64,000 nt of DNA, taken from the NCBI GenBank assembly GCA_003116975.1, contig BGKB01000135.1:124001-188000 (forward strand). Reading direction: 5' to 3'. How positions within the stretch are numbered: position 1 is the stretch's first letter; the number at the start of each line of letters is the position of its first letter. Positions 20,573 through 48,417 of this stretch are shown here, piece after piece. Under the pieces are notes generated by a model. It saw only the letters and a list, made by a program, of their open reading frames with translations. It searched no databases and was not told the DNA's origin. The stretch is from Aurantiochytrium sp. KH105. Lineage: Eukaryota; Sar; Bigyra; Thraustochytrida; Thraustochytriidae. The position numbers were made by a program, and so were the translations under genes.

Positions 20573-23500
20573 TCAAGGTTTGTCCCATCTCGATTCCCCC
20601 GTCTCGCGGTTCCAGTAATACGTCTTAGAGGTTTCGGGATCAACTGCCTCAACCCATACACTTGCAAGAGGTTCCGGCTCCTTGGTAGTGCTGACCAAAT
20701 CGGCAGCAGTATTAGCTCCGTGCGCAGACACTGCCGCAGCTTGAGGGACTGAAAGGGCTTCCTCTTCTCGGAGAACGTGCTCGACACTATTAGTTCGTGG
20801 ATCGAGCATGACGTCCTGAATTGCATCCAACTCGTCCATGCTCTCGACAGGGTCATCCGCTTCGCTCCTTGCCTGTAGCAATTCATTGCTGTCTAGCGAG
20901 TCCCGACGAGGCGGCAAAAGGGTCTCCAAGTTGACCCCAAACCATTGCTGCAACTTGGCGTCCACGCGGACCATGGCAGACTCCACCTTCACTTCAGCGG
21001 CTTCAACCTTAGTCTTGGCCCAAGCTGCAGCGCGTTCTGCTTTGGCGCCAATCTTTTGCTTCAAAGAAGCTCGCTTGCTTTCAACGCCGACATCCTTGGG
21101 CGGTGCAGTCTTGGTTGACACAAGCTGAGGCAACGCCTTGAGCTGTTCGACCCCATGTGCGCCGTCTGCCCGCGGATAGAGCTGTGCAACACCAACAGGA
21201 AACGCAGAGTCAATATGGACCTCGAAAGGACCTTCCTGGTCAGCTTCATACGTGGCGACCAACAAGACATAGAGCCCCGGCTGAAGCGTCGCATGAATGT
21301 GCTTTTCGTGAACTCTCTCAGGGTGACCCGTCCATGCCACCAGACTCTGACGCGAAAGGGAGCGAATGTAGCGTACGTGTCTCGCACGTCGTGCAGGAGA
21401 TTGAATTAAGAGTCCAGCAAATGGCTGAGGTTGCGTGACCATCTGCCCGTCAGCGTCGATTTGCGCGATCTTGATGTGAATGTCCACGGGTCGCTGCACG
21501 TCAATGATCCATTGCGGATTGCGGTGCACCAGTGCCTCTGTATTGTGTTTCGTCGGCAGTCCTGCAGCAGTGCGGCCCGACCAAGAACCGTGCAAGGTGA
21601 CCGATCGCCAGATGCGCGGGTCGTAGTAATGACACACATACAGCGAACGAAATGTCAGACAAAAGTCGTCAAAGCTCATCCAAAAGGTCCCATCATCCTC
21701 GTCATCGGTCCACCCAAGCTTGTGTTTGAGCCTGGTTGTCCACAGCGGCGACTGATCGCCCCAGTCACCCTTCCATTCAGACTGCGCACCAGGTGGGTTC
21801 CGTAGTTGCAAAAGCTTGTGGCCGTCAACGCGACGAACTTGATAAATGGCATAAATCGCCCCGAAAACAAGCCCCGAATCCATCATCTCGGCGTTTGCTG
21901 CATTGTTTGCAATTGTGCCGCAGCCCATGAGGAAGCCATTGCGCGAGTATCTTTGCAACTTTTCCCAAAGCCGCGTTCTTGCAGGACCTTGTGTTGCCTC
22001 AAGCAAAAAGATTTCTTCCGCGTCGTAGCCGGTCAAAGTCTTCAAAGCCTGGTGCACATAACCGTTTTCGAGCATAGTGTACGTGCCGAACGACTTTGCA
22101 TATGCTTTTTCTAAAAGTGAGACCCACATTTCCTCAAACTTGAGACTATGGCTCGCTGCAACACCTGCATTTCGCTCTGTCTTGTACTGGGGGGCCAACA
22201 TGGGAAATTGATCATCGACCAAGATGAGCTGCCATTGCGAATTCTTGTAGAGACGAAGAGCATAGGCTCCGACATCGTTTCGAGCCTTGGTGATAAATAG
22301 ATTGTCAATCAAGGGATCGACTTCCTCATCGCCAACTGCCCCGGACGCGGCCAAGATTGCCACGGCGGAGAGAAACCAGCCGTTGTGCAAGATGCCCTGC
22401 GCTACATCGTCCGGATCTGTTCCTCCGCTGAATACCTCCACTTTCGGGTTGATGGCGCGCGCACGGCTCCATCCTGCAAGGTAGGCCTCATTGGCGATGC
22501 CTGCAACTGAACTAGCGCCTGCGGGGAACTCGGGGTCGTCAAACATGTCTAACGCCTCAGCCATGCCCTCCAATTTTACAGGCTTCGTATTCTTTCCACT
22601 TTCAATCTCGCCGAGCATTTCGCGAGCGTTCACAACAATTTCAGGCTCCTCGGATTCGTCTGCATTATTGCCATTCGCTTCGCGAGCGACCCGGCGCTGG
22701 TAAAAGTTTTCGAGCTGCCGCCGTCCTGTAGCAATATCATACTGTGCTGCCCACGCATCAAGCTGTTCGCTATGTGAGGCGAGTTGGCGATCCTCCTCCA
22801 TGCGCACCCCTTCAGCAGCGGCGACCTCCTTTGCAAACACCTTTTTCAAAGCGTAAAACCTTTCGCGTTGTTCCCTTGACAAGCGCAAGAGCCAAAGCGC
22901 GACCAATTTTACGTCGACCGTAGCCCACGACTTGGACTTGAAAATTTTCCGCGGCGGCTCGATCTTGTTGGCAAGCAATTTAAAGCGGTACTCGCGAAGG
23001 AAGCGCTGAAACAGAATAGCCTCCTTCGACTTGCGACCCTCGCTGGCCACGACAATGAGCATTTGCATTAAAGCATTCGCACGCGTTTCCTCGTAATACT
23101 CACGCGCCAGTGCCACATCGAGTTTCGGAAGCTGCAAGTACAATTTCCAAGAATCGAGCATTTCCACCTGTTCAAAGGCAGCCTCTTCGGCTTCTGCAGC
23201 GGCCGCCGCTGCAGCCTCCGCGGCAGCAGTTGCTTCCGGATCTGGATTAAACGTATAGCTTTCAATCCAACGCGGAGCCAGCGACTTCTTGACGACAGAC
23301 GTGCTAAAGGCATCCAGACCACACTTGGCAACGCAAAATGGATCGCTTGTGCCTCCACGGTCCGCCGCGCGCAAATCTTTGGCGGACACCACGGTCACTT
23401 GAAGGCTAGCTTTCGAAGCCTTCAGACCATATTCATTTACTTGTGCCGACAAAAGTAACGCGAGTTTGACGTGACCCGTTGCTCGCTTCTTCCCAAAGCC

Positions 23501-26500
23501 TCCTTCAAGCGCAAAAGTATCCACAAGCTCTTCGCCCGGGACTAAGTCCGGCAGATAGATATCGACCGCACCAAGGAGGTCAGAGGAGAGCACGTCCTTG
23601 TCGCGAATTTCAACTTGCAAGGTGTCGTCGACGGGCGGAAAAGTGAATCTGCCACCTCCACGCGCTGATGTCCAGTCCGGGTCGAGCGTTTTGTACACGA
23701 CGGGTGTACGTCGAGAAAAGGTACCGCACTCCACGACGCAGAATGGATCGCTTGTTCCCGTCTTGTCCGCGGCCCGGAGCCCGCGGGCTCGCAACACGAC
23801 CACGCGGACTTGGAGGTCCAGATCTCCGCTTTCACCGCCAAAAACATTTGCCACCTCGACCTGAACTTGAAGCTCTCCCGTCACTTCGATTTTTTCGTTG
23901 TCTGTGTCGAGCTCGTGCCACTCGATGTGAACCGTATCGGGAGTGAGCTCGTCAAGATCAATTTCCACGTATCCAAGGTCATCGTTTGCGCTCGTCATGT
24001 CCCAATCCTTGACGCTGATCTTGAGCTTGTCACCGCCGGGACCAAGTTCATCGACCAATCGATCAAGCTGGTCATCTTCGCCGTCTTGATCATCGTTAGA
24101 GAGCGCATCGCCAAGAATCGCGGCCGCCGTTCCAGCAGCTTGCCCGGAAGGCAGCACTCTTGAGCTTCTCCCATGCTTGCGCTTTTTTCGCCGCAGGCTC
24201 GCTGGATCCCTGTACATTTCAAAAATTGTAAGGGCGACGCCTCCGAGCATGAGCGGCGCAAAGGGCCCCTTGGCTGTGTAAAAGGCATCGACGAGGCTTG
24301 TTTTCCAAGTCAAAGCTTGATCTCGCCTTCGTTTTCCGAGTCGATCATAGAAGAGCTTTCGTTGCGCCTTTTGCAAAACGTCAACCATCTCTTTTGCCGC
24401 GTATCGTGTCGTGTACTCAATGCTACGAGCCTTCTTTGACGCATTCGTCACTGAAAACTTGTCAAGCTCCCGCTTGACGCGCTCGTCCTCGCGATCGCGA
24501 GCTTCGTACTCTTCGCAAAGTATTTCAAAGTTCTCGCGACGCTTCTCGAATACGTGGCGGGCCTGCTTTGCGGCCTCCTTCAGCTCGTGCTCGTCGACAC
24601 AAAGCGTCGCACTCGCCATCCAAATGGGAGTTCGCGAAACGAAAAAGCTCAAAAGAGTCAGGGCACCAACATACGAAAATGAAACGAGACCAATGCCGAT
24701 ATCCAACGGGTCGATGAAGCATGTGCAGCACACTCCCCAGAGGAGCAGCACAAATTGCATTTTGAAGACGAGCTCGCCAATCTCATTCTTCTCCACCAAG
24801 TCATTGGAGATGGGGTCCAACACGTACACGGGAAAGACAAAGGTGGAAAAGTAAATGGGCGTGCTCCTCGAAATGGTTGCCAAGTGTGCGATAAGCCCAA
24901 TGCCAAGGCGACCGAGTTGACACAGCAGAGACAGAGAGAGCGAGAAGAAAATGGCATCGCTACTCTGCACTATCTGCACCAAGACGGCCAGCACGCAAGA
25001 CACCGAGACAGCGTTGAGCACAACGCGAAGCAGCGACTGATATTGCCGAGGGAGAAAAAAACCGTTCGCGGCCCAAATCTCAATGAGCTGCATGGACACC
25101 CACACGAGACCGGTGAAAGCAGACGAAAGAAATCCGGTCATCGGACTCGCAAAGATGTACGCCATCACGGCACAAAAGAAAAAGTACCGAAAGCAAAGCT
25201 GCAAAGGACGACGGAGCTTGTCGCTCAATTGCCAGCTATTATCACGCCAGATGAGCATGATCGATATTGCGAGAAGAAGTGCTGGCCACAGAACCAAACC
25301 AAAGAGAAGCCAAAGTGCTCCTGGGCGCGACACACTGGCCCCCAAAACGTCAATAAAGACGATGAGGCTGCCGATAACGTCGAGCGCGATCGAAATCTTC
25401 ATGCAGTGAACCATGTCGGGCGAGATCTGTTGTGTTCCGTAGAACTTTCGCATGGGCACCAAGGAAAAGACCAAGAGCAATGCGACAAACCAAATTGTAT
25501 TGCCCCAGCGGAGACTTCCTTCTGTGCGACCAATCACCATCCCGTAAAGCACGACAAGCCCGGTGAGCATGCCGATTCCTCTGAGCATCGAATAATCCAT
25601 GGCAGTCAGCTTTCCGTGCCAAAGAGCTTCCACGTCGGTCATCTTTGTCGGATCCGTTTCCTCAGAGATTTGTAGCTTCTCACGCAGGAAAGCAACAACC
25701 TTGGCGCGAATAACCTTGTATTTCGCAGCGAAGCGCTTTGTGAGAATTGCGAAACGCGAGCGCGATGAAGCAAGAAGTCTGCGCAACGATACGTGAGGAC
25801 AACGCAACCGTGCGCCAAGCCCTCTACGGCTCTTGGCCGATTCCTGAAGAGGTCCCAGTTCGGGGTCACTGACATCCTCTGCTTCTTTTGCATCACCTTT
25901 ATCAGCGAGGTCCTCTTCACCATCTGCTCGTTGGCCCGAGACGTTTTGTCCCTCGAGGGCGCCGCCATCATGCGTTTCCGTCGCATCCTTGCTGTCGCCT
26001 TCGGTTGCGCCTTTCTCGTTCTTGCCAAAGCTCGCATCTTGAATCGCCGACTCGTCATTTTTGACTTCCTCCTCGTCGTCGACGTCGTCATCGTCGAATA
26101 TTCGATCAACCTTTTGTGCGTGATGCATGGGTTTACGAAACGGAAGCTTTGGCATCGCGAGAGCACCGGCTTGCTTGTGTTTTGCAAGTCGTTCGTTCAG
26201 AGCCTTCAGATTGCCGCTAATGGATTTGCGAAAAGAACTCGTTCTGCTTGCCTGGTCTTCGTCATCCTCGTCATCAAACCCTGATTCGTCCGAGTCCGAG
26301 TCGCCCAGGTCACCTAAGCCACCAAGTCTTCGAAGACGACTCTTCCTCTTTTTTTCCCGTTTTCGTGCGCGCGATTCCTCGTCGTCGTCCTCGTCGTCGC
26401 CATCGTCGTCGCCCTCCATGTCGAGATCGTCGTCTCCATCTTCTTCTTCATCGCCGTCCTCGGGATCCTCACCACGGCGGCTGGCCTTTTCGAATATACT

Positions 26501-29500
26501 GAAATCATTGGCGCACCAGTGCATGTAGACGCGCAAAGCCACGGCGGCAATCAATGGGAAAAAGATGGATGACACAAAGACAAAAGTGGACGAGGTCATG
26601 GCGTAGAACAAGAGACCCGACATGACCACGAGTAGCTCGGCCAGTGCAACAAGCTGAATAGGAAGACTGATCCACCGGTACATGAGGTACGCGCGCGTTC
26701 GCAACAAGCCTTGATGTTGTAGCATAAGTGCTCGCCGTGCTAGACCGAGGACAACGCTCACGATAACTACCACAAAGGCAATCACACCAAAGATCCATAG
26801 GTCCCAGGTTTGACCAAGCACTGTCAGCGATGGCATCGACTCCTGGTCCTCAAGGGCAAAAACGTAGCCCAAAAGTGCAATGAGAAAGAAGAAACTCAAG
26901 GCAGCCAAGACGAATTCTGGCATGGCGCTCACATCGTGGACACGCTTTCGCTTCATCAGACCTTGGCCAAAGTATGCCACCGAACCTGCGCGGTCCGAGC
27001 CGATGGTTTGCATGCGTTGGTTGATAATCTCCTGCCCTAAAGCTGCTCCATAGATAAAGTACGCGAGTCCAATACCAACTAGCCAGTTCTCGCCAGCGCA
27101 CAAGGCGAGCGTTCCACGCCCAGCAAAGCTAAGCAGCACATAATGACCGGTACCCCACATACACGGTCCACGAAGAAGTGCAAAGAGAGCGGTGTCGAGA
27201 AGTACAATACAGAAAGCAAAGCCAAAGCCTTGCGCACGGTATGCAGAGTCGCACTTGAAGAACACCACGATGGAGTATACAAAGAGGATGCTAAGTGCCA
27301 CACCGTACAAACCTCGAACGAGACGTCTGCGCTTGCGTCTACCGCCTGCGAACCATCGGCGAAAGGTGTCCGTGTACGAGAACTCTTTGACGGTGTCATC
27401 GATAGTGTAGACGCCGCCAAGAAGCGAGCCAAAGGGCTTTTTGTCAGGACGAGTCTTTTCGCCAGAGGAGCTCTTGTCCTTCTCAGGCTCCTCCGCTTTC
27501 TTTGCATTGTTCAAGAGAGCCATTTTGAGACCCATTGTTCCAAGCGCTTGGAACTTGTTCTTGACGGCGCTAAGCTTAGAGTTTTTGTCCACAACGCGCT
27601 GCAGCTGAGCAAAGGCCTGGTGCAGCTGATCATTATCCAAAAAGTAAATACCAATCATGGGCACTGCGTTGAGCGTGAACGCGACGCAGCTCAACCCAAA
27701 AATGGAAAATGGGAGACCAGCATCGATGACACGCATGTCGAAACACACGGCCAGAAACAAGAATACGTATATAGAAGCCGCGCCAACGCCGAAAGCGACG
27801 AGACGCGCATGCGACATGCGCCAGCCACTCTTCTTCCACGTCACGAAAGCAAATGTAATGGCTGCGATTCCCATGCCGACGCAGAATACGGCAAGTCCGG
27901 CGGCCATAGGAACCGCCTCCTTTGCCATGGCCAAGCTGTATGAGAAGCAGAGTGCTACAGGCGCAAGCAGGGTCACCTTGGCACCGAGCGTAAGAAAGTA
28001 GAGGTTGCGTCGAAAGTCGATGTTTGCAGGGGATCCATTCAGATACCAGTTCTTCAAGACAAGGGAAAGCAAATTTTTCGACTCGTCCTTGGCAGCGGCC
28101 TGCAAAAGCCCATTCTCGATGCGATCGACGCGCCAGGCAATCTTGTTGAAAAAGCTGCGTTGCAAAAGCACAAAAGGAAGCACAAGCAAGAGCATTTCGC
28201 GAATCAGAGGCACGATCGTGTCAACCTCGAATTCTGTTCGATACGATGCGTCTGTCTCGCCTTGGTTGGCGGTCATGACTGCAATGACACCATACATCAT
28301 CTCACTTGCGACGAGCTCCCCGGTGCTGTCGCGCATCCCATATGATGGATAGCCGAGTGCTAGAGAACTCTCACTCGAAAGGCTTGTGGACCAAGCTCTA
28401 AAGCTTGAATCCTCGTTGCCCTTTTGTACCATGCGCACAGAGGTGTTCGTCCAACCAGTTGCATCGTTGATCCATCCCGGGGTCGCTGCATCGCCCTCGT
28501 CATCCTCGGGAAAAAACACATAAATGGTGCTGTCGACATTCGTTTGCAGCTTGAGGTACGTCCCACTAGCATCGAGTGCGTTGTGCGTCATATTTGTTTG
28601 GAGCAACAGCCCTCCGCTCACGTCTTGAAAAGTTGGCCAGCTTGGGTCGAGAACAAACGAGCCGCTCACGTAAAGGCGGCCCCATCTTCCTGATGATGGC
28701 ACGTCGGCGGTAAATTTTACGCTTGCGGTCGTCACAGAGGTGCCCGTTCCTATCTCGGAAACCTCCGTCACCTCGATCCGAAACGGCTGAATCGTCGTTT
28801 CCACAAGAAGACAGGGAGCGTCTGGGTCAGCGACATCGGCATCCCATGGCGATGTCAGTCGTCCCAAGCAATTGGCGTCGCTGGTGAGAGGAAGCCATAC
28901 TCTTTCAACGCATGCGGCACGGTCACAGACATTGTTTGGGCCCGCAAAGCAGGCACAGTCGGGAACACGAAAGTTCACTTCATGTAGGAGGTCGTCTGCA
29001 AGCTCAAGACCCGCGTCATCGTCATAAACACGAACCGTCATGTTTTCTCCCGAAAACTGAGCGCCAAACTCGAGAGCATCGCCTTCATTCGGCCAAACGG
29101 GTGTGAGCGATTCTTCGACGACAGAAGATTGCCTTACGACATCGCCAATGGTGATCTCAACAAACGGGTCGCTCACGCCCGCAAAGGGCCCCCACCCGTC
29201 CTCGTCTGTGAGACCAGTAGCAGCGATAATCGCAACAGTCAAGTTGCCACCATTATCCTGGCCTTGTGAGCTACTGCATTCTGCCTCGACATCGCAGCTT
29301 AGCATATTGCGCGTACCTGCGCGCTCAGTCTCGTCATCTTCGTCTTTGGAAAGAAGAACAGCCACAACAACAATGACCAATCCAAGGAAAACGAGCCATG
29401 CAGCCTTTGCTTTTGGTTTTCCGCACGTATGTCGCAAGCGCTCGTACTTTTGTCGCATCTTGGACGGCACAGGAGCCGCCTCGACCTTTTGGGGCTCTGC

Positions 29501-29956
29501 GCTCGCCGTGACTTCTACTGCATTTGCGACAGGCTCCGCGTTTGCAACAGGCTCCGCGTTTGCAACTGAATCTGCATTTGCAGCAGGCTCCGTGCTTGCA
29601 GCAGGCTCCGTACTTCCAGCAGGCTCCGAATTTGCAGCAGGCTCCGTATTTGCGATAGGGTTCACATTTGCAGCAGGCTCCACGTTTACAGCAAGCTCCG
29701 CATTTGCAGCAGGCTTCACATCTGCAGCAGGCTCCGCATTTGCAGCAGGCTCTGGTGTGCTCGACAAAGGCTTCGTTGTGCGCGCTATTGGGTCTGTTGT
29801 GCTCGCCGTACGCTCTGTCGCGTTCAACATAGGTTCGGATGCGCTCGCCGTAGACTCTGTTGTGCTCGCTTTAGGCTTCATCGCGCTCGCTATTGGGTCT
29901 GTTGCGCTCGCCATAGTCTCTGTCGCGCTCGCTACAGGCTCCTCTGAGCTTGCCAT
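20573..29956 (-). CDS. Giant DEK1-like multi-pass protein with C2 domains, calpain-like (catalytically dead) domain and WW domain
   Basis: This 3127-residue protein combines about 22-24 membrane helices with a calpain domain, as plant DEK1 does. The order is: a degenerate repeat N-terminus rich in AxAEPxAN units (about 45-150); a first TM (about 187-203); a C2-like domain (SDPFVEI); about a dozen helices; a highly acidic loop; about ten more helices; a coiled linker; two C2 domains that each contain GTSDPFCV; an Ala/Glu coil; a calpain protease-like domain from about 2490; a C2L-like beta domain; and a C-terminal WW domain (YYWNRETGESRW). The calpain fold is clear (FDDPEFPAG, LLEKAYAKSFG, LLQLRNPPG, SEWKGDWGDQSP). 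However, the active Cys is Gly2526 (QGILHNGWFLSA) and the His is Ala2700 (FGAIYAI). Only Asn2720 remains. It should therefore not cut proteins; a scaffold or mechanosensing role is inferred. Confidence 0.85.
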   Translation of the reverse strand: MASSEEPVASATETMASATDPIASAMKPKASTTESTASASEPMLNATERTASTTDPIARTTKPLSSTPEPAANAEPAADVKPAANAELAVNVEPAANVNPIANTEPAANSEPAGSTEPAASTEPAANADSVANAEPVANAEPVANAVEVTASAEPQKVEAAPVPSKMRQKYERLRHTCGKPKAKAAWLVFLGLVIVVVAVLLSKDEDDETERAGTRNMLSCDVEAECSSSQGQDNGGNLTVAIIAATGLTDEDGWGPFAGVSDPFVEITIGDVVRQSSVVEESLTPVWPNEGDALEFGAQFSGENMTVRVYDDDAGLELADDLLHEVNFRVPDCACFAGPNNVCDRAACVERVWLPLTSDANCLGRLTSPWDADVADPDAPCLLVETTIQPFRIEVTEVSEIGTGTSVTTASVKFTADVPSSGRWGRLYVSGSFVLDPSWPTFQDVSGGLLLQTNMTHNALDASGTYLKLQTNVDSTIYVFFPEDDEGDAATPGWINDATGWTNTSVRMVQKGNEDSSFRAWSTSLSSESSLALGYPSYGMRDSTGELVASEMMYGVIAVMTANQGETDASYRTEFEVDTIVPLIREMLLLVLPFVLLQRSFFNKIAWRVDRIENGLLQAAAKDESKNLLSLVLKNWYLNGSPANIDFRRNLYFLTLGAKVTLLAPVALCFSYSLAMAKEAVPMAAGLAVFCVGMGIAAITFAFVTWKKSGWRMSHARLVAFGVGAASIYVFLFLAVCFDMRVIDAGLPFSIFGLSCVAFTLNAVPMIGIYFLDNDQLHQAFAQLQRVVDKNSKLSAVKNKFQALGTMGLKMALLNNAKKAEEPEKDKSSSGEKTRPDKKPFGSLLGGVYTIDDTVKEFSYTDTFRRWFAGGRRKRRRLVRGLYGVALSILFVYSIVVFFKCDSAYRAQGFGFAFCIVLLDTALFALLRGPCMWGTGHYVLLSFAGRGTLALCAGENWLVGIGLAYFIYGAALGQEIINQRMQTIGSDRAGSVAYFGQGLMKRKRVHDVSAMPEFVLAALSFFFLIALLGYVFALEDQESMPSLTVLGQTWDLWIFGVIAFVVVIVSVVLGLARRALMLQHQGLLRTRAYLMYRWISLPIQLVALAELLVVMSGLLFYAMTSSTFVFVSSIFFPLIAAVALRVYMHWCANDFSIFEKASRRGEDPEDGDEEEDGDDDLDMEGDDDGDDEDDDEESRARKREKKRKSRLRRLGGLGDLGDSDSDESGFDDEDDEDQASRTSSFRKSISGNLKALNERLAKHKQAGALAMPKLPFRKPMHHAQKVDRIFDDDDVDDEEEVKNDESAIQDASFGKNEKGATEGDSKDATETHDGGALEGQNVSGQRADGEEDLADKGDAKEAEDVSDPELGPLQESAKSRRGLGARLRCPHVSLRRLLASSRSRFAILTKRFAAKYKVIRAKVVAFLREKLQISEETDPTKMTDVEALWHGKLTAMDYSMLRGIGMLTGLVVLYGMVIGRTEGSLRWGNTIWFVALLLVFSLVPMRKFYGTQQISPDMVHCMKISIALDVIGSLIVFIDVLGASVSRPGALWLLFGLVLWPALLLAISIMLIWRDNSWQLSDKLRRPLQLCFRYFFFCAVMAYIFASPMTGFLSSAFTGLVWVSMQLIEIWAANGFFLPRQYQSLLRVVLNAVSVSCVLAVLVQIVQSSDAIFFSLSLSLLCQLGRLGIGLIAHLATISRSTPIYFSTFVFPVYVLDPISNDLVEKNEIGELVFKMQFVLLLWGVCCTCFIDPLDIGIGLVSFSYVGALTLLSFFVSRTPIWMASATLCVDEHELKEAAKQARHVFEKRRENFEILCEEYEARDREDERVKRELDKFSVTNASKKARSIEYTTRYAAKEMVDVLQKAQRKLFYDRLGKRRRDQALTWKTSLVDAFYTAKGPFAPLMLGGVALTIFEMYRDPASLRRKKRKHGRSSRVLPSGQAAGTAAAILGDALSNDDQDGEDDQLDRLVDELGPGGDKLKISVKDWDMTSANDDLGYVEIDLDELTPDTVHIEWHELDTDNEKIEVTGELQVQVEVANVFGGESGDLDLQVRVVVLRARGLRAADKTGTSDPFCVVECGTFSRRTPVVYKTLDPDWTSARGGGRFTFPPVDDTLQVEIRDKDVLSSDLLGAVDIYLPDLVPGEELVDTFALEGGFGKKRATGHVKLALLLSAQVNEYGLKASKASLQVTVVSAKDLRAADRGGTSDPFCVAKCGLDAFSTSVVKKSLAPRWIESYTFNPDPEATAAAEAAAAAAAEAEEAAFEQVEMLDSWKLYLQLPKLDVALAREYYEETRANALMQMLIVVASEGRKSKEAILFQRFLREYRFKLLANKIEPPRKIFKSKSWATVDVKLVALWLLRLSREQRERFYALKKVFAKEVAAAEGVRMEEDRQLASHSEQLDAWAAQYDIATGRRQLENFYQRRVAREANGNNADESEEPEIVVNAREMLGEIESGKNTKPVKLEGMAEALDMFDDPEFPAGASSVAGIANEAYLAGWSRARAINPKVEVFSGGTDPDDVAQGILHNGWFLSAVAILAASGAVGDEEVDPLIDNLFITKARNDVGAYALRLYKNSQWQLILVDDQFPMLAPQYKTERNAGVAASHSLKFEEMWVSLLEKAYAKSFGTYTMLENGYVHQALKTLTGYDAEEIFLLEATQGPARTRLWEKLQRYSRNGFLMGCGTIANNAANAEMMDSGLVFGAIYAIYQVRRVDGHKLLQLRNPPGAQSEWKGDWGDQSPLWTTRLKHKLGWTDDEDDGTFWMSFDDFCLTFRSLYVCHYYDPRIWRSVTLHGSWSGRTAAGLPTKHNTEALVHRNPQWIIDVQRPVDIHIKIAQIDADGQMVTQPQPFAGLLIQSPARRARHVRYIRSLSRQSLVAWTGHPERVHEKHIHATLQPGLYVLLVATYEADQEGPFEVHIDSAFPVGVAQLYPRADGAHGVEQLKALPQLVSTKTAPPKDVGVESKRASLKQKIGAKAERAAAWAKTKVEAAEVKVESAMVRVDAKLQQWFGVNLETLLPPRRDSLDSNELLQARSEADDPVESMDELDAIQDVMLDPRTNSVEHVLREEEALSVPQAAAVSAHGANTAADLVSTTKEPEPLASVWVEAVDPETSKTYYWNRETGESRWDKP

Positions 29957-41274: not shown

Positions 41275-44200
41275 ATGGCACTCCAGGCGGCCAACCTTAC
41301 GGACAGTGAAACCACAGTGGCCACGAAAAGAGAGCTCGAGGCGCTTGACGTCCCGCTGGGACCTGAAGTCCCACCACGGGTGTATGGTGGTCTTCGAGGT
41401 GAGGTGGAACTCAAGGTCGCGCGATTGACGGTCTTGCGAGGCGCACTTGCTCGCGAAGCTCGTCATACTTCGCTTGCAGTTGCATTTGCGTGGTGGGGAC
41501 AGGACCCAAACTCCTCGGCGACTGCTTTTCGGCCACTTGTGCGGCGAAAAGATGATCGACCTGTAGGACCAGCAGCAACCGCTGCGCCTCTCAGTACAAA
41601 CACCTACTTTCCAGTGCGCTCCTCGCCCGCAAAACTTGCCGCATATCTGCGGGACGCTCAGACACTTGAACTTCGCGTCGTGCGTGCCGAGGAAGCCACA
41701 ACAATCGATGGCCCGAGCTTTGGCGTCGCGACGCTCGAGCTTCAAATTGCCGAAAACGTTGACCTGTCACACCTCACCGTCGACGGCATGCTTCCTGTCC
41801 GCGACCCTGCCTCGGGCACCGAAGTTGCGACTCTCGAGGTGAGTTTCCGCGTTGGTCTCGGGCCTCGTCATAGTTCTCTTCTTGCCTTGGTTGCTGCAAA
41901 CGAGGCAAAGCGCAAAAATCCGCCGCTTCGTCTTGGGCGTCACGTGCCATCACCATCGCTCCAAGCTCTGGTTCAGGGTATCGAATCTCTACCACATGAG
42001 AATGAGCCAGCATCACCTAGCGATACCATGACGGCCTCTGCTCTTTCCTTTGAAATGAACGAGGTCCGAGCAAGTCTGGCAGCCACGGCTTCGCAAGGTG
42101 ACTCAAGACCAACATCAGCGAGCAGCTTTGGAATCCACGAGCTCGAGTCTGAGGCTCCTCCATCAAGTGCGCCACGAAGTCCACAGCAACAACATCGACC
42201 ACAAAACGCAAGAACGGCGCCTCCAAGCCGTAGACGTCAAAGAGCCACGATGGCGGCTGATCTTGCCATCGAACTGGGAGGAAACAGTGATAGCTTGCAG
42301 CACGGCGAACAAGGTGCTGCCGCACGCTTGCGTGCACTTCGCGTGATCAAGTCGCTACGGAGTCGGGGGATGGGCCCGCCAACACCTCGAGCACAAACGC
42401 AAACGCAAACGCGAACGCGAACGCAAACGCGAACACGACGTGCAAACACGGAAGAGAATACGGGCGTAGGGGCTCCAGGTATTCACCACCAAGCCGCGCA
42501 AACTCATGTGCGTTCAAGTCCAAGATCGCCATCAGGTCCCGGCACCGCACGAGCACCGCCACCTGCTCTAGCCAAGTTCCTAGCCCAAGCCGAACGACTT
42601 CGCAATGAAATGGACCGAGCTCTTGACAGTTCGGATATCGAGCAGCCAATGGTCAGCCCAGGTCCAAGCCAAGAGCACGCGCTCGTCATATACCCAGACG
42701 GTCCAAGCTTCGCAGGCCATCGGCCAAGCTCGCCATGGTACGAAGAGCCTCGATTTCCGGAATCAGGCGTTCTTGCGTCAGCTTACGCTCCAGGCGTTGG
42801 CGTCATTAACGCCTCGGGGGAAACGGCAGATCTCGAAACCTGGATCCCGCAGCTCTTGCACGAAATCGGCGACACCGTAGGGTTCCCGACAGACCCGCTC
42901 TTGGCAGCGATGCAGCCTGTTACGGCAGCCGTTGCCGCTGGCTTACGATCGGTCGAAAGCGTTGAATTCGTGCTCTCTGAAATTGACGCAAACCCCAAAC
43001 TTTGGAGCCACAAGTCCTCATCCCATGATGTAAAGCCAGACTTTTTAATTGAATGCCTTCTCGAATTTCCGCGGTCAGGGAATAGCCCGGACGCGGACGA
43101 GGAACGCATCGTGAAAAGCTCCGTGCAGTTGTCAGCACGCAACAGGTCTACACGCTCGCAGCCTGTCCCTACGGGCACGGCTCGGCGCAGGAGTAGTGCG
43201 GCGCCGTCTGATCGAAATGCCGACAGACCCAAGCCTGGCCCAAGCAAGACAAAGCTTGATCTGTCGACCACGCGTCACGTGCGTTTCGACCAAGCTACCT
43301 TGGAGAAATGGCTCTCTGGCTACCTGCGCGTCTCGCTGCTTCGGGACGGCATTTCTGCTGCTACGGGTGCGCTGGCCCTACGCACCGTTATTCTCGCCAA
43401 CGACCCTCATACTGCAGCGTCGTTGCGTCTTCTCGACTGTGCTGGAATCGCAGGGACTGTGGCAGAATTGGCCAAACAAAGCGCCTCAGTCACCGGAGAT
43501 CAGGTTCTCGCTACACTTCACCTCGAGATTACCATGACATCCTCGCAGGACGCTGCAACACGTCGCGCGGAGATGAGCTTTGCACGTGCACAATCTGCGG
43601 CTCTCTTGAAAGGACGGCCACCCCAGCCTCCTACGACATTGCCACCACGAGCACCACAGGCAGATGGATATCATTTGCGTCTCGTTCTTGACCGCCTCGA
43701 GGTCGCCAAAGGTTCGAGCGCGTCATCCATTGAAGCGCTGCATGAACCAATTCAGCTACAGCACCAAACTGGTGCTCACGGGTACGTCACTTTGAGTGAG
43801 GCAACTCGATCGGTCGAGTACCCTGGAAGCACCGTGCGAAGACCCTTTATCATGGAGGCCTATGATGCACATGGAAGTCTTGTTGGCTTGGCCAAGCTTC
43901 CTGAATCGTTCAAGCTCCCCTTTAGCGATTGGGTGTCAGTTCGTGACCCTTTTACTGGCAAGGATCGACTCTTTGCTCATATTCGTCTCGAGGAGATGGC
44001 CGTGGCCAACACAACGGACGCGCCGCGTCCAATCACGCCTCCTCGGCATCCACATACCGAGGAGTCATCGCCGCCGCAAAGTCCTTTCGAGCGCTCTCAG
44101 CACTCACCACCGTTACAACACCCCGTGACACCACCACGCCATCGTTCGCCCACAGTTCCACAAGAGTCGCCATCATCAACGCAAACGGGACGATCTCCAT

Positions 44201-47200
44201 CCTCGAGACAAGGAAAACGCACGCCGCAGCCACAGAGACAAGACTCGCCAGCGTCAAGACAATCAACACCAGTGGCGCGTTCCTCGGCGCGAAAGCCGAC
44301 ATCAACGTCATCGCGAGAGTCGACGCCAGCGAAGTCGTCTGCACCCAGCGAATTGGCTTCTGTTCGTTCACCATCGGGCAGAGGCGTTGTACCCGGCAAC
44401 GGCGATGATCACTTTGTCGAAACCACCGCTGTTCAGCACGTCTTTGTTTTTGAACTTGGATCTCTCTGTTATCGCGCGGATTTGGCTGGCGCGCTCGTCA
44501 CGTATAGGTTTCCCCTTGTTGACGAGGGTGCGTCGATCGAAGATCAGCAGCTTCACGAGCATGAGCTTTGGTGGGACAGCGTGGTTGAGGAGAATAACAC
44601 GATTGGGCGACACCTCATTGAGACGACACAGGCGGACGAAATTCTTGCAGAGTGGCTTGCACGAGAGAATGACAAAATCCGCTTCCGAGTCCTCGCCCCG
44701 CCGCCCGGGGCTAATGAAAGTGAGGCGCGCGAAGATGCGCTGGCAACTTTGTCCATCCACGAGCTTGCTGCTCTCTATCGCAGAGCAAGACGGCTCTCCG
44801 ATACCGAAGATCAGCAAGCGGGAGGAGGAAAAGAAGAAGAAGGAGAAGAAGGCGGAATGGGTGCCACACAGCAGACTGCTCGAGCTTCGGCCGTTTTTCG
44901 TTTACCCCTTTTGCCTGCGCGTTCGAGTCCTGCAGCACGAAAGCAAAAGGTGAATTACCTCAAGGTGGCCGTGCGCTACCTGCAGTATGAGACTCGGCAG
45001 TGGGTGCGAATTGAAACGCTTCGCCAAGCGCAAGGGCCCTCTGGAGAACACGCAACGTCCCGGACCCGCTTAGATGCGCAATCAGGCCCGCGACGCGTGC
45101 GAGCTTCGGACAATAAACTTGATGAAGCCCGCGCAAGGCTCTGCGTGCAAATTGTGCGTGTCTCAGGATTGGAGCAACTTGCGCGCTTGGCTGCCAAGCA
45201 AAAGGAAGGAGCTTCTTCGATGCATTTGGCGGCTGCTGTTGGCGTCAATGCATTCGTAGATGTCTCGATAAGTGTAGGTGCTCATCAATTACGCCATCGC
45301 ACTGCTGTCGAGCCACGAAGTTTTGAGCCGGCGTTCAATGAAGAGGTGAGCATCGAGTTTGCTCTAGACAAAGAGGTCCTGGACGCGCTCGGGCGTGCAG
45401 AGGCAGTCATTCGTGTCTGGCATCAGGAACCTAACGCTGCCATGGCCAAAGGTCAAACGGTTCTCTTAGGATCTGCTCGAGTCTCCCTACGTGATTTGCT
45501 CTTGTCCCAGTCTGGAGCCCGCGGCGACTTTGCGCTAACGTCTCCGGTCGATGCCAATATCGACGACAAAACGCGAGCGCACCCCCCACTTGGGCATGTT
45601 CGCGCCGCGATCTTTTTCGAGCACCATCGTGAGCTCGCGCAGTACTTTCCTCCCGATGACCTCGCCACACCCTTTTCCTCTGCCGCGCACTACATTGCCA
45701 CGGATGCAACCTCCGTTGATGATGACGATGATGACGATGATGATGATGCATTTGGAGAAGGAGGAGAACACGTCGACTTCGAGGACGATTACAAGGACAG
45801 CATTCTGCCACCTGAGTCCGCGGCAACGGACGAGCATCTTGTTGCCCAAGACGATTTGGGGGTCTCTTTGCCTCTATTGACCGGCGAGGCCGAAGAGGGC
45901 TCCGATGACGATGAACGTATCGTGCTTCAAGCGCCTTTGTCAACACCTTTGAACGATAGAGGAGACGCTGCCTTGTCTCCAACACAAGATCGGGTCGAAA
46001 GTGAAAATGACAGCATGATGCAGCCCTTGTCTGCGTCACGAGGCGGTGGCATGCTTTGCGTGAGTGTCGAGGAAGCCATGCACTTGCCCATGGTACTTGT
46101 GCGGGACAGCCTACAGCCGCCGCTTCCGTACGTGTCATTCGTCCTTCACGGCCCAAGGTTCTCAGATGCACGTCACACGCAGCCCAATCCAGATGGGAGC
46201 TCGTGCAACCCGCGTTGGTTCGAAAATCTCCGGCTGCCTATCGATAACCTTGGCCAGCTTCGTGATGGCATTCTTCGCTTCCACGTATGGCATCGGGCTT
46301 CTTGGCAGAGGGACTCTGTCGAAGACCACGGAAGCGTTGTCTCGGAAGGTGGGGCCCGACATCCGCCTCCGGGCTTGGACTTTGATCCCTACTCGAACGG
46401 TCTTGCGCTGCAGCATCGTACCATAGCAGAGACGTCTGCTGTTTTTGGGGACAATGATATTTACTTGGGCACCGCGGTCGTTGATCTTTCCACGCTCGAT
46501 GTTGGTATCGACCGCGTTCATGGCTGGTATCATGTCATCGACGCGGAGCAACGTCGCGTCGGCCAAGTCAAGGTCAAGGTCTCGATCGTACGCGCATCTT
46601 CTGGCGTAAAAGACAACGACTTTGCCGCCACTTCAGCCGAAGAGAGTGTATCTTCAAACACATTTGCTTCACGAGACGTTTCTGGAAAAGAGGATGCAAA
46701 GCATGACCAGGATTCCGAGGCAGCCCTTTCGCCAGCAGCTTTGGCAGACGCAATGCAGAGTCTCGATTTAGTATCGGAGCGCCTGCGAATGCGCATGTTG
46801 CGCCTGGAGAACTCGAGTCCAGCCCCTCAAGACAATGCCGGCGCCTCGGTCGACCGCCAGGTGGCAGATGAAAAAGAGGACCAGCAAGAAAACGATGGTG
46901 GGATTACTATGTGCAGTCAATCTGGATCGAATATTGACGTAGAGATCCCACCAAGTGGCGCAAGTGGCGATCTGGAAAGCCTTGACCTCAACGATGGCGT
47001 CGCGCCTGTTGAACCACCTAGACCTCAGGATACAGAGACGCTACATCCCACCGAAATCATGCACACTTTGGAGGATGCGGACAATTTGTCTCCCCACCCG
47101 TTTGATGGTGCTGCTGCGGTAGAATCCATTCACACCACATCCGAGGCCAAGGGCGGCATCGGCGAGTCCGACCTGGTCGAAAATACCAAGACGGGCGAGG

Positions 47201-48417
47201 AGAATTACGAGGTTGTCAAAGACTGTGAAGAAACTTCTTCAACAGAGCACGGATCGGCTCTTGCAGCTGACGATGATGCAATCAACGCTGCACTCGATCA
47301 AGTCGAAACTGCCATTGAGGGCAACACTACTGATGGCATATTTGATGGTGATGCCGAAGAAGACATCGAGAAGCGTCAAGAGTCGGCTGATGTTTTGACA
47401 CCAGCGGACGCAGGTTCAGGAATGGTACTGGAGGAGTGCACGTCAGAATTGCATGAGACAATCTATGGAACGCAAGAAGCGGTTTCTAATGATTTAGATG
47501 CAAGCAAAGCACATCAAGTTGGTGAAACTACAAGTCTTGCAAGGGGCCAAGAAGAGGAAGACGAAGAAGAAGAAGAGGGTACTTTTGACTTTGAAAAGGA
47601 GGAAGTCGAGAAGTGCGTTTTTGGCCCGCAAGATGTGATTGCAGAGAATGACGAAGAGAGAATTTCTGAATCGCGCAAAGGCGATATCCGGTTGAAACGC
47701 TCTGCGTTCTCTCCAGTGAACTGGAACGAAGAGCATCAACAAGTAGAGGAAGAGGAGGACAGTCTCGCCGAACAGCCCACCAAAGGAACGCTGGCGAACC
47801 CCGAAAAAGACTCTGTTTCTAGCGATGCGGAGGCTCACGATGGCTCGCGCGACTCTACGTTAAGCCCTGGAAAATACGGTCAATCGGTGAGCACTGTCGA
47901 AGGCGTTGGCGGTTTTCAGGAGCATGACATTGATCAAGTTCATTACGTAGTTGATCTTCACGCGAACGAGGAAGACCAAGAGGAAACGACCTTTGCCAAG
48001 AGCTCCAACGCAGATCTCGACGAGCTTGAATTCCATGGTAAACGCGCTTCTCAAGACCCGAAAGCGCATGAGAGCGACAGCGAGAGCTCTTTGTCAAGCG
48101 AGGGCGCCAAGAGTGTTCTGTCTTCCTTTGCAGTGGACCCCATGAAGATGCCCGATTTGCCATCTACGCACTACAATCAATTGGCGCAAGTAGGACCAGA
48201 ACTCCCGCAAGCGCATATATGCAGCGGCCAAGAGGCCCGCGTGAGGCGCTTGTCTGTGTCGCCAATCCAAGTTAACGAGACGATGGAGGTGGGCACCCCG
48301 AGTTTATTCGCAAGCGAGGAGAAGCGTCGAATGGCCAAGAAGAGCACGTGGATGGACCCTGAAACCGCGCGGATCGCCCGAATTTTGCGGGGTGATAGCA
48401 GCAAAGCAAGTAACTAA
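41275..48417 (+). CDS. C2CD3: C2CD3, centriole distal-end assembly protein
   Basis: C2CD3 sits at the distal end of centrioles and basal bodies and is needed for their elongation, distal appendages and cilium or flagellum formation. The 2380-residue protein is close to the human length. The N-terminal C2CD3 domain (about 25-190) shows the linker PPRVYGGLRGEVELKV and the FAWWGQDPN signature, where human has RWWGE. Later C2 domains include one from about 1288 (LCVQIVRVSGLE, FEPAFNEEVSIEF) and one from about 1592 (MLCVSVEEAMHLP, NPRWFENLRLPI, LRFHVWHR, LGTAVVDLS, GWYHVI). Disordered linkers separate them: a Pro/Ser/Arg-rich stretch (about 920-1035), an Asp run near 1483 and an acidic C-terminus. 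A hexanucleotide run near 42395-42440 codes alternating QT/RT. It is a single exon with an ATG start (AACATGG). Its presence implies a flagellated stage. Confidence 0.9.
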   Translation: MALQAANLTDSETTVATKRELEALDVPLGPEVPPRVYGGLRGEVELKVARLTVLRGALAREARHTSLAVAFAWWGQDPNSSATAFRPLVRRKDDRPVGPAATAAPLSTNTYFPVRSSPAKLAAYLRDAQTLELRVVRAEEATTIDGPSFGVATLELQIAENVDLSHLTVDGMLPVRDPASGTEVATLEVSFRVGLGPRHSSLLALVAANEAKRKNPPLRLGRHVPSPSLQALVQGIESLPHENEPASPSDTMTASALSFEMNEVRASLAATASQGDSRPTSASSFGIHELESEAPPSSAPRSPQQQHRPQNARTAPPSRRRQRATMAADLAIELGGNSDSLQHGEQGAAARLRALRVIKSLRSRGMGPPTPRAQTQTQTRTRTQTRTRRANTEENTGVGAPGIHHQAAQTHVRSSPRSPSGPGTARAPPPALAKFLAQAERLRNEMDRALDSSDIEQPMVSPGPSQEHALVIYPDGPSFAGHRPSSPWYEEPRFPESGVLASAYAPGVGVINASGETADLETWIPQLLHEIGDTVGFPTDPLLAAMQPVTAAVAAGLRSVESVEFVLSEIDANPKLWSHKSSSHDVKPDFLIECLLEFPRSGNSPDADEERIVKSSVQLSARNRSTRSQPVPTGTARRRSSAAPSDRNADRPKPGPSKTKLDLSTTRHVRFDQATLEKWLSGYLRVSLLRDGISAATGALALRTVILANDPHTAASLRLLDCAGIAGTVAELAKQSASVTGDQVLATLHLEITMTSSQDAATRRAEMSFARAQSAALLKGRPPQPPTTLPPRAPQADGYHLRLVLDRLEVAKGSSASSIEALHEPIQLQHQTGAHGYVTLSEATRSVEYPGSTVRRPFIMEAYDAHGSLVGLAKLPESFKLPFSDWVSVRDPFTGKDRLFAHIRLEEMAVANTTDAPRPITPPRHPHTEESSPPQSPFERSQHSPPLQHPVTPPRHRSPTVPQESPSSTQTGRSPSSRQGKRTPQPQRQDSPASRQSTPVARSSARKPTSTSSRESTPAKSSAPSELASVRSPSGRGVVPGNGDDHFVETTAVQHVFVFELGSLCYRADLAGALVTYRFPLVDEGASIEDQQLHEHELWWDSVVEENNTIGRHLIETTQADEILAEWLARENDKIRFRVLAPPPGANESEAREDALATLSIHELAALYRRARRLSDTEDQQAGGGKEEEGEEGGMGATQQTARASAVFRLPLLPARSSPAARKQKVNYLKVAVRYLQYETRQWVRIETLRQAQGPSGEHATSRTRLDAQSGPRRVRASDNKLDEARARLCVQIVRVSGLEQLARLAAKQKEGASSMHLAAAVGVNAFVDVSISVGAHQLRHRTAVEPRSFEPAFNEEVSIEFALDKEVLDALGRAEAVIRVWHQEPNAAMAKGQTVLLGSARVSLRDLLLSQSGARGDFALTSPVDANIDDKTRAHPPLGHVRAAIFFEHHRELAQYFPPDDLATPFSSAAHYIATDATSVDDDDDDDDDDAFGEGGEHVDFEDDYKDSILPPESAATDEHLVAQDDLGVSLPLLTGEAEEGSDDDERIVLQAPLSTPLNDRGDAALSPTQDRVESENDSMMQPLSASRGGGMLCVSVEEAMHLPMVLVRDSLQPPLPYVSFVLHGPRFSDARHTQPNPDGSSCNPRWFENLRLPIDNLGQLRDGILRFHVWHRASWQRDSVEDHGSVVSEGGARHPPPGLDFDPYSNGLALQHRTIAETSAVFGDNDIYLGTAVVDLSTLDVGIDRVHGWYHVIDAEQRRVGQVKVKVSIVRASSGVKDNDFAATSAEESVSSNTFASRDVSGKEDAKHDQDSEAALSPAALADAMQSLDLVSERLRMRMLRLENSSPAPQDNAGASVDRQVADEKEDQQENDGGITMCSQSGSNIDVEIPPSGASGDLESLDLNDGVAPVEPPRPQDTETLHPTEIMHTLEDADNLSPHPFDGAAAVESIHTTSEAKGGIGESDLVENTKTGEENYEVVKDCEETSSTEHGSALAADDDAINAALDQVETAIEGNTTDGIFDGDAEEDIEKRQESADVLTPADAGSGMVLEECTSELHETIYGTQEAVSNDLDASKAHQVGETTSLARGQEEEDEEEEEGTFDFEKEEVEKCVFGPQDVIAENDEERISESRKGDIRLKRSAFSPVNWNEEHQQVEEEEDSLAEQPTKGTLANPEKDSVSSDAEAHDGSRDSTLSPGKYGQSVSTVEGVGGFQEHDIDQVHYVVDLHANEEDQEETTFAKSSNADLDELEFHGKRASQDPKAHESDSESSLSSEGAKSVLSSFAVDPMKMPDLPSTHYNQLAQVGPELPQAHICSGQEARVRRLSVSPIQVNETMEVGTPSLFASEEKRRMAKKSTWMDPETARIARILRGDSSKASN

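Follow-up and report, generated by a model that had tools for sequence, protein, structure and literature searches.

A membrane-anchored calpain with a substituted catalytic triad and a conserved core in Aurantiochytrium sp. KH105

Domain architecture of the locus

We analyzed a window of 64,000 nucleotides from the thraustochytrid Aurantiochytrium sp. KH105 (assembly GCA_003116975.1, contig BGKB01000135.1, positions 124,001 to 188,000 of the forward strand). The gene considered here is a 3127-codon open reading frame (ORF) at 20573..29956 on the minus strand, a single open frame whose product of 3127 amino acids (aa) is a membrane-anchored calpain with the catalytic Cys and His replaced. A whole-protein Pfam scan returned four C2 stretches, a full-length Peptidase_C2 match and a C-terminal WW domain. 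Membrane spans and topology were taken from hydropathy alone; a Kyte-Doolittle scan gave 22 hydrophobic segments across residues 185-1773 at a cut of 1.4, and 21 at a cut of 1.6 when counted on the part of the ORF contained in locus L011. The features are listed below from the N-terminus to the C-terminus, after the gene itself.

20573..29956, minus strand: predicted membrane-anchored pseudocalpain, Type 3/4 (best fit Type 4), 3127-codon ORF; the copy on contig C61 has 3116 aa
29348..29404, minus strand: hydrophobic segment 1, residues 185-203, with a Lys/Arg-rich stretch just before it (Kyte-Doolittle scan)
28958..29248, minus strand: N-terminal C2, residues 237-333, between hydrophobic segments 1 and 2 (Pfam C2, E 1.9e-10)
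26528..28219, minus strand: membrane region part 1, hydrophobic segments 2-13, residues 580-1143 (hydropathy)
25589..26527, minus strand: long charged loop within the membrane region, residues 1144-1456 (hydropathy)
24638..25588, minus strand: membrane region part 2, hydrophobic segments 14-22, residues 1457-1773 (hydropathy)
23909..24040, minus strand: partial C2 of the linker, second half of the profile, residues 1973-2016 (Pfam C2, E 9.4e-06)
23513..23812, minus strand: complete C2 of the linker (nearly the whole profile), residues 2049-2148 (Pfam C2, E 4.4e-15)
23240..23407, minus strand: partial C2 of the linker, first half of the profile, residues 2184-2239 (Pfam C2, E 2.2e-12)
21629..22543, minus strand: CysPc, the calpain protease core, without catalytic Cys and His, residues 2472-2776 (Pfam PF00648)
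22406..22408, minus strand: Asp2517, putative calcium site 1, Asp96 position of rat CAPN2 (alignment; site list from PMC4057710)
22379..22381, minus strand: Gly2526 at the catalytic Cys position (alignment)
22130-22132, minus strand: Glu2609, Glu175 position of rat CAPN2 (alignment)
21857..21859, minus strand: Ala2700 at the catalytic His position (alignment)
21797..21799, minus strand: Asn2720, the one triad residue kept, with Pro-Pro rather than Pro-Trp after it (alignment)
21755..21778, minus strand: Glu2727 and Asp2734, putative calcium site 2, Glu292 and Asp299 positions (alignment)
21692-21694, minus strand: Asp2755, Asp321 position; Thr2757 stands at the Glu323 position (alignment)
21218..21592, minus strand: CBSW, the calpain beta-sandwich (Calpain_III), divergent and weakly supported, residues 2789-2913 (Pfam)
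20576..20662, minus strand: C-terminal WW, residues 3099-3127 (Pfam WW, E 2.8e-09)

Membrane-anchored calpains have been divided into four types, with DEK1 as Type 2, Type 3 defined as C2-MEM-Linker-CysPc-WW (MEM, membrane region) and Type 4 as the same order with CBSW added; Types 3 and 4 are predominantly oomycete, and Type 3 also occurs in one brown alga (PMC10762896). C2-TML-CysPc calpains of stramenopiles were described in 2012 (PMC3563603). The window protein has the Type 4 features of an N-terminal C2, a multi-span MEM, a CysPc behind a linker and a C-terminal WW. Compared by architecture, it shares the domain order of the oomycete Type 3/4 calpains (PMC10762896) and differs from them in its weak CBSW and in the C2 matches of its linker. 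CBSW, which discriminates Type 4 from Type 3, gave only a weak match, with 24.8 bits when scanned alone and 17.9 bits, under the cut-off of 21, in the whole protein. The domain order thus points to a Type 3/4 membrane-anchored calpain, with Type 4 as the best fit.

The initial annotation had called the protein DEK1-like, a label that this domain order does not bear out. Both proteins have a multi-span membrane region with a long loop, a linker, CysPc and, as a weak match in the window protein, CBSW; however, the DEK1 of land plants keeps the whole triad, is proteolytic and has a published architecture without C2 or WW, whereas the window protein reads Gly, Ala and Asn at the triad and carries both domains. 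For the laminin-G-like (LG) domain of the streptophyte DEK1 linker, no Pfam LG match was obtained in residues 1930-2470 (scanned in four pieces) or in the whole protein, although a divergent LG can be missed. CAPN6 and trypanosomatid calpain-like proteins likewise have a calpain fold without the full set of catalytic residues, and non-proteolytic functions have been reported for them, but they differ in their other extra domains and, to our knowledge, are not multi-span membrane proteins.

Residues 204-579, which hold the N-terminal C2, contain 8 Cys and 4 N-glycosylation sequons and would lie on the non-cytosolic side. In the linker (23240-24040, minus strand), half-C2 matches, the second half of the profile and then the first, stand on both sides of the complete C2, as if one C2 had been split or permuted around another; a single-sequence structure model of this region (residues 1972-2316) was useless, with a mean pLDDT of 32.6. 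Residues 1-184 (29405-29956, minus strand) form an Ala/Glu/Pro-rich repeat tail with 25 gapped codons between the two copies of the gene.

Active-site residues and selection on the core

The Peptidase_C2 profile matched the core over its full length (1-297 of 297; E 4.8e-62). A structure model predicted that CysPc folds as a calpain core, with the CBSW part modelled at low confidence, and the sequence of the core remains compatible with the calpain fold. Three motifs on the minus strand mark the active site: QGILHNGWF starting at residue 2520 (nucleotides 22399-22373), FGAIYAI at residue 2698 (21865-21845) and LRNPPG at residue 2718 (21805-21788), in which G2526, A2700, N2720 and P2722 are read directly. 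In an alignment to m-calpain, G2526 falls on the nucleophile position (Ser in three entries), A2700 on GHAY and NPPG on NPWG. For comparison, 55 distant calpain loci were collected from prokaryote genomes and 30 of them examined by script; after L058 and L068 were dropped, 28 were aligned (alignment A2), while IMG/VR held 3 distant calpain loci. The Cys, His and Asn columns are C, H and N in 28 of the 28 bacterial relatives, and the Trp column after Asn-Pro is W in 25 and H in 3.

These alignments, together with the second haplotype described below, confirm what the initial annotation had read from the letters, namely Cys replaced by Gly2526, His by Ala2700, Asn2720 kept and the Trp after Asn-Pro lost, in a frame open for 3127 codons. 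The profile comparison that it proposed gave a match to the whole domain, and its placement of the domain at 21700-22500 covered most of the full span but fell short of both ends. No Cys occurs anywhere in residues 2213-2678, the whole stretch having been checked, so that no other Cys can be in register with the nucleophile; the alternative pair that would have overturned the annotation is therefore lacking on the Cys side. Loss of catalysis is well supported, and the protein is very probably non-proteolytic.

Such loss of Cys and His has already been published for members from oomycetes and brown algae, and the window protein is a further case. In Types 1, 3 and 4, the residues of the active site "might be missing/substituted" (PMC10762896); Cys is replaced by Ser, Ala or Gly in oomycetes and by Ser in many brown algal members, His by Ala, Ser or Thr, and Asn is mostly kept (PMC13413365). 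The Gly, Ala and Asn of the window protein lie inside this spectrum. Open-licence literature in PMC on pseudoproteases naming calpain had nothing on this protein type among the matches listed; for thraustochytrids, one set of matches listed contained no mention of calpain, and some articles of another contained 1-3 mentions each of calpain and of thraustochytrids.

The genome comprises 76.0 Mb in 367 contigs and yields 25 Peptidase_C2 matches, which resolve into 11 gene pairs and 3 second pieces. This pairing suggests that the genome is present as two haplotypes. The second copy of the gene, on contig C61, is one open frame with the same Gly, Ala, Asn and Pro. Because both haplotypes agree, sequencing error, which the annotation had named as a possible refutation, is very unlikely. 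Between the two copies, the CysPc core shows 21 synonymous and 3 non-synonymous differences (ratio of non-synonymous to synonymous rates, dN/dS, 0.038; p 1.9e-11 against equal rates), and the whole gene 187.5 and 68.5 (dN/dS 0.106). The N-terminal tail (0.401) and the membrane-region loop (residues 1181-1455; 0.305) evolve fast, and the membrane parts slowly (0.048 and 0.040).

Among the other calpain pairs, dN/dS is 0.014, 0.031, 0.036, 0.049, 0.089, 0.186 and 0.266 in the seven that keep Cys and His, and 0.189, 0.229 and 0.323 in the three with broken triads, the motif state having been read by alignment in one or more copies of every pair and by pattern only in the rest. Because its dN/dS lies among those of the Cys/His-keeping pairs, the dead core is constrained like several working-looking calpains. 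It is under strong purifying selection, above that of the other dead cores in the genome, and its identical state in both haplotypes agrees with the retained non-proteolytic role that the annotation had proposed.

The catalytic Cys is missing from 4 of the 11 calpain genes. The annotation had also raised the question of a second, active paralogue, and two Cys/His-intact multi-span calpains were found: C204/C34 (about 2322 aa, about 20 hydrophobic segments) and C13/C24 (about 1970 aa, about 20 hydrophobic segments, a 21st falling in its CysPc).

Putative calcium sites and the possible function of the core

Calcium ligand positions of rat CAPN2 (PMC4057710) were placed by counting along the m-calpain alignment. 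Asp96, Glu175, Glu292, Asp299 and Asp321 correspond by alignment to D2517, E2609, E2727, D2734 and D2755, each of them acidic. In the Cys/His-intact calpains of the genome, these five columns, counted in one copy per gene except for C73/C18, hold 2 acidic residues in C204/C34, 4 in C33/C47, 5 in the fusion to an EML-type propeller described below, 1 in C13/C24, 3 in both copies of C73/C18, 2 in C247/C15 and 1 in C89/C98; gaps and insertions surround the sites in some paralogues, and single columns may be misplaced. As aligned, acids at the calcium sites are more numerous in the dead core than in either of the membrane calpains with intact Cys and His.

By family, responsiveness to calcium is expected of C2 domains and of calpain calcium sites, and binding of proline-containing peptides is expected of WW domains. 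On this background, we consider it moderately probable that the locus encodes a Type 3/4 membrane calpain, best fitting Type 4, whose core, an established pseudoprotease, serves this multi-span membrane protein as a cytosolic conformational clamp operated by calcium. Binding of calcium close to the membrane, by the C2 domains of the linker and by the sites kept in the core, would bring the core's two halves together, and this closure would alter how the core, CBSW and WW hold their partners. The protein would then gate or scaffold rather than cut, and its membrane region may sense or conduct. Taken separately, a role as a calcium-responsive scaffold or regulator seems to us evenly balanced.

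Several points weigh against the clamp. One of the six acidic calcium-site positions is not kept, Glu323 being Thr2757, and the sites of the window core are deduced from aligned letters only. In classical calpains the Trp after Asn-Pro reorients upon calcium activation (PMC4057710), and this position is Pro in the window core; the loss of the Trp suggests that any closure would differ from that of classical calpains. Triad substitutions do not always abolish activity (PMC7912814). The dN/dS values compare the haplotypes of one genome with few changes per gene, and the clamp itself is reasoned by analogy from domain families.

An alternative that we consider unlikely is that the membrane region is the working part, as a channel or tension sensor, with the dead core as a passive cytosolic plug or regulatory tail. 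In Arabidopsis, a mechanosensitive calcium current requires the DEK1 membrane region, for which overexpression of the calpain is no substitute (PMC5647327), and the slow evolution of the membrane parts here fits such a role. However, no relation of this membrane region to its counterparts in the two other membrane calpains is detectable, and the core is as constrained as the membrane parts, which would be needless for a passive plug.

Residual hydrolase activity through another nucleophile, such as a Ser close to the active-site helix, is very improbable. The predicted fold and the Ser found in place of Cys in many brown algal members (PMC13413365) would allow it, but the nucleophile position here holds Gly, not Ser, and the base position Ala, with a neighboring His such as His2524 as a conceivable base.

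Cleavage through a displaced triad has still less probability. The July 2026 paper PMC13413365 considered, among other possibilities, that membrane calpains of brown algae and oomycetes have a functional displaced triad, and left open whether they cut in this way. In its alignment, a displaced Cys lies 38-40 columns, and one or two His lie 66-67 columns, before the usual positions. The window protein keeps Asn2720 and has His2635 at 65 residues ahead of Ala2700, close to the published spacing, a match made between published alignment columns and residues here. The displaced Cys, reported in nearly all brown algal sequences and in the oomycete ones (PMC13413365), is absent from the window protein; residues 2213-2678 hold no Cys that any alignment could place as a displaced nucleophile, and the Cys part is refuted for this protein. 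The same His also stands in both membrane calpains with canonical Cys and His (GGHVHSAL and GGHVHAAL), whereas the column reads G, D, A, A, G and E in the other Cys/His-intact calpains of the genome (six rows, five genes) and is His in 0 of the 28 aligned bacterial relatives. In this genome, the displaced His is a mark of membrane-anchored calpains and not a replacement base. The displaced-triad idea is argued against because the displaced Cys is absent here and the displaced His also occurs in canonical Cys/His calpains.

A pseudogene or an assembly or sequencing error would explain why two of three catalytic residues are missing but has next to no probability, since the second copy, on another contig, is likewise one open frame that encodes these residues, and synonymous differences between the copies well exceed the non-synonymous ones.

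Beyond the single protein, we put forward tentatively, and at rather less than even likelihood, that the stramenopile C2-MEM-CysPc-WW calpains may form an old, obligately non-proteolytic branch whose core has turned into a pure calcium-driven clamp; the printed "non-canonical triad" would then be a misread structural His together with a lineage-specific Cys. If this is true, the core gave up catalysis while holding on to its calcium sites, the reverse of what is seen in the two membrane calpains that keep Cys and His and lack most of the calcium-site acids. The protein offers a natural experiment on what selection keeps of a calpain core without catalysis, here the fold and most calcium-site acids. 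With one dead and two Cys/His-intact membrane calpains in one genome, catalytic and structural roles could be told apart by gene removal. A partnership between the dead protein and the two intact ones is conceivable but doubtful.

Other calpains of the genome and neighboring genes

The membrane regions of C204/C34 and C13/C24 are mutually related (their match scored 254, whereas 60 shuffles reached at most 48; BLASTP 3e-23). With the 2322-aa paralogue, the window membrane region gave an hhalign score of only 24.35, no detectable relation. A match to the 1968-aa paralogue, at 94% probability and a score of 69.15, failed its controls and was rejected: the ten best of 100 locally shuffled copies scored 72.7-82.2 and the reversed sequence 76.15. 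In both Cys/His-intact membrane calpains (L029/L030 and L020/L021) the third motif is DPWG, where Asp stands in place of the catalytic Asn, and in L029 and L020 most acidic calcium-site positions are lost.

The CysPc trees neither join nor separate the three membrane calpains with support. A tree of 8 rows, one per gene, from which bacteria and the three other genes with broken triads were excluded, recovered them as one clade in 11% of 200 bootstrap trees, and the AU test does not reject that clade (p 0.24). A tree of 26 rows (20 from this genome and 6 bacterial, with L033/L034 left out) gave the window protein no supported place.

The three further pairs with broken triads are L024/L025, L031/L032 and L033/L034, under weaker constraint (dN/dS 0.189-0.323); alignment covered the two copies of L024/L025 and of L033/L034, and only L031 of L031/L032. 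The motifs of L024/L025 read QGRLANAW, GWIY and EPWR. In another pair, L017 (G000:C41:136500-144500) and L018 (G000:C16:533500-541500), a calpain with Calpain_III is fused in frame to a HELP motif and two EML-type beta-propellers. L017 has intact active-site motifs and acidic residues at all five calcium-site positions, and the HELP motif of L018 scored 25.4 bits in the Pfam scan, just below its cut-off.

Elsewhere in the window, a 2380-aa ORF (41275-48417, plus strand) matches the N-terminal C2 domain of C2CD3, a centriole protein family. A 951-aa ORF (55746-58601, minus strand) carries three cyclic-nucleotide-binding stretches and a protein kinase domain in a PKG-like order.
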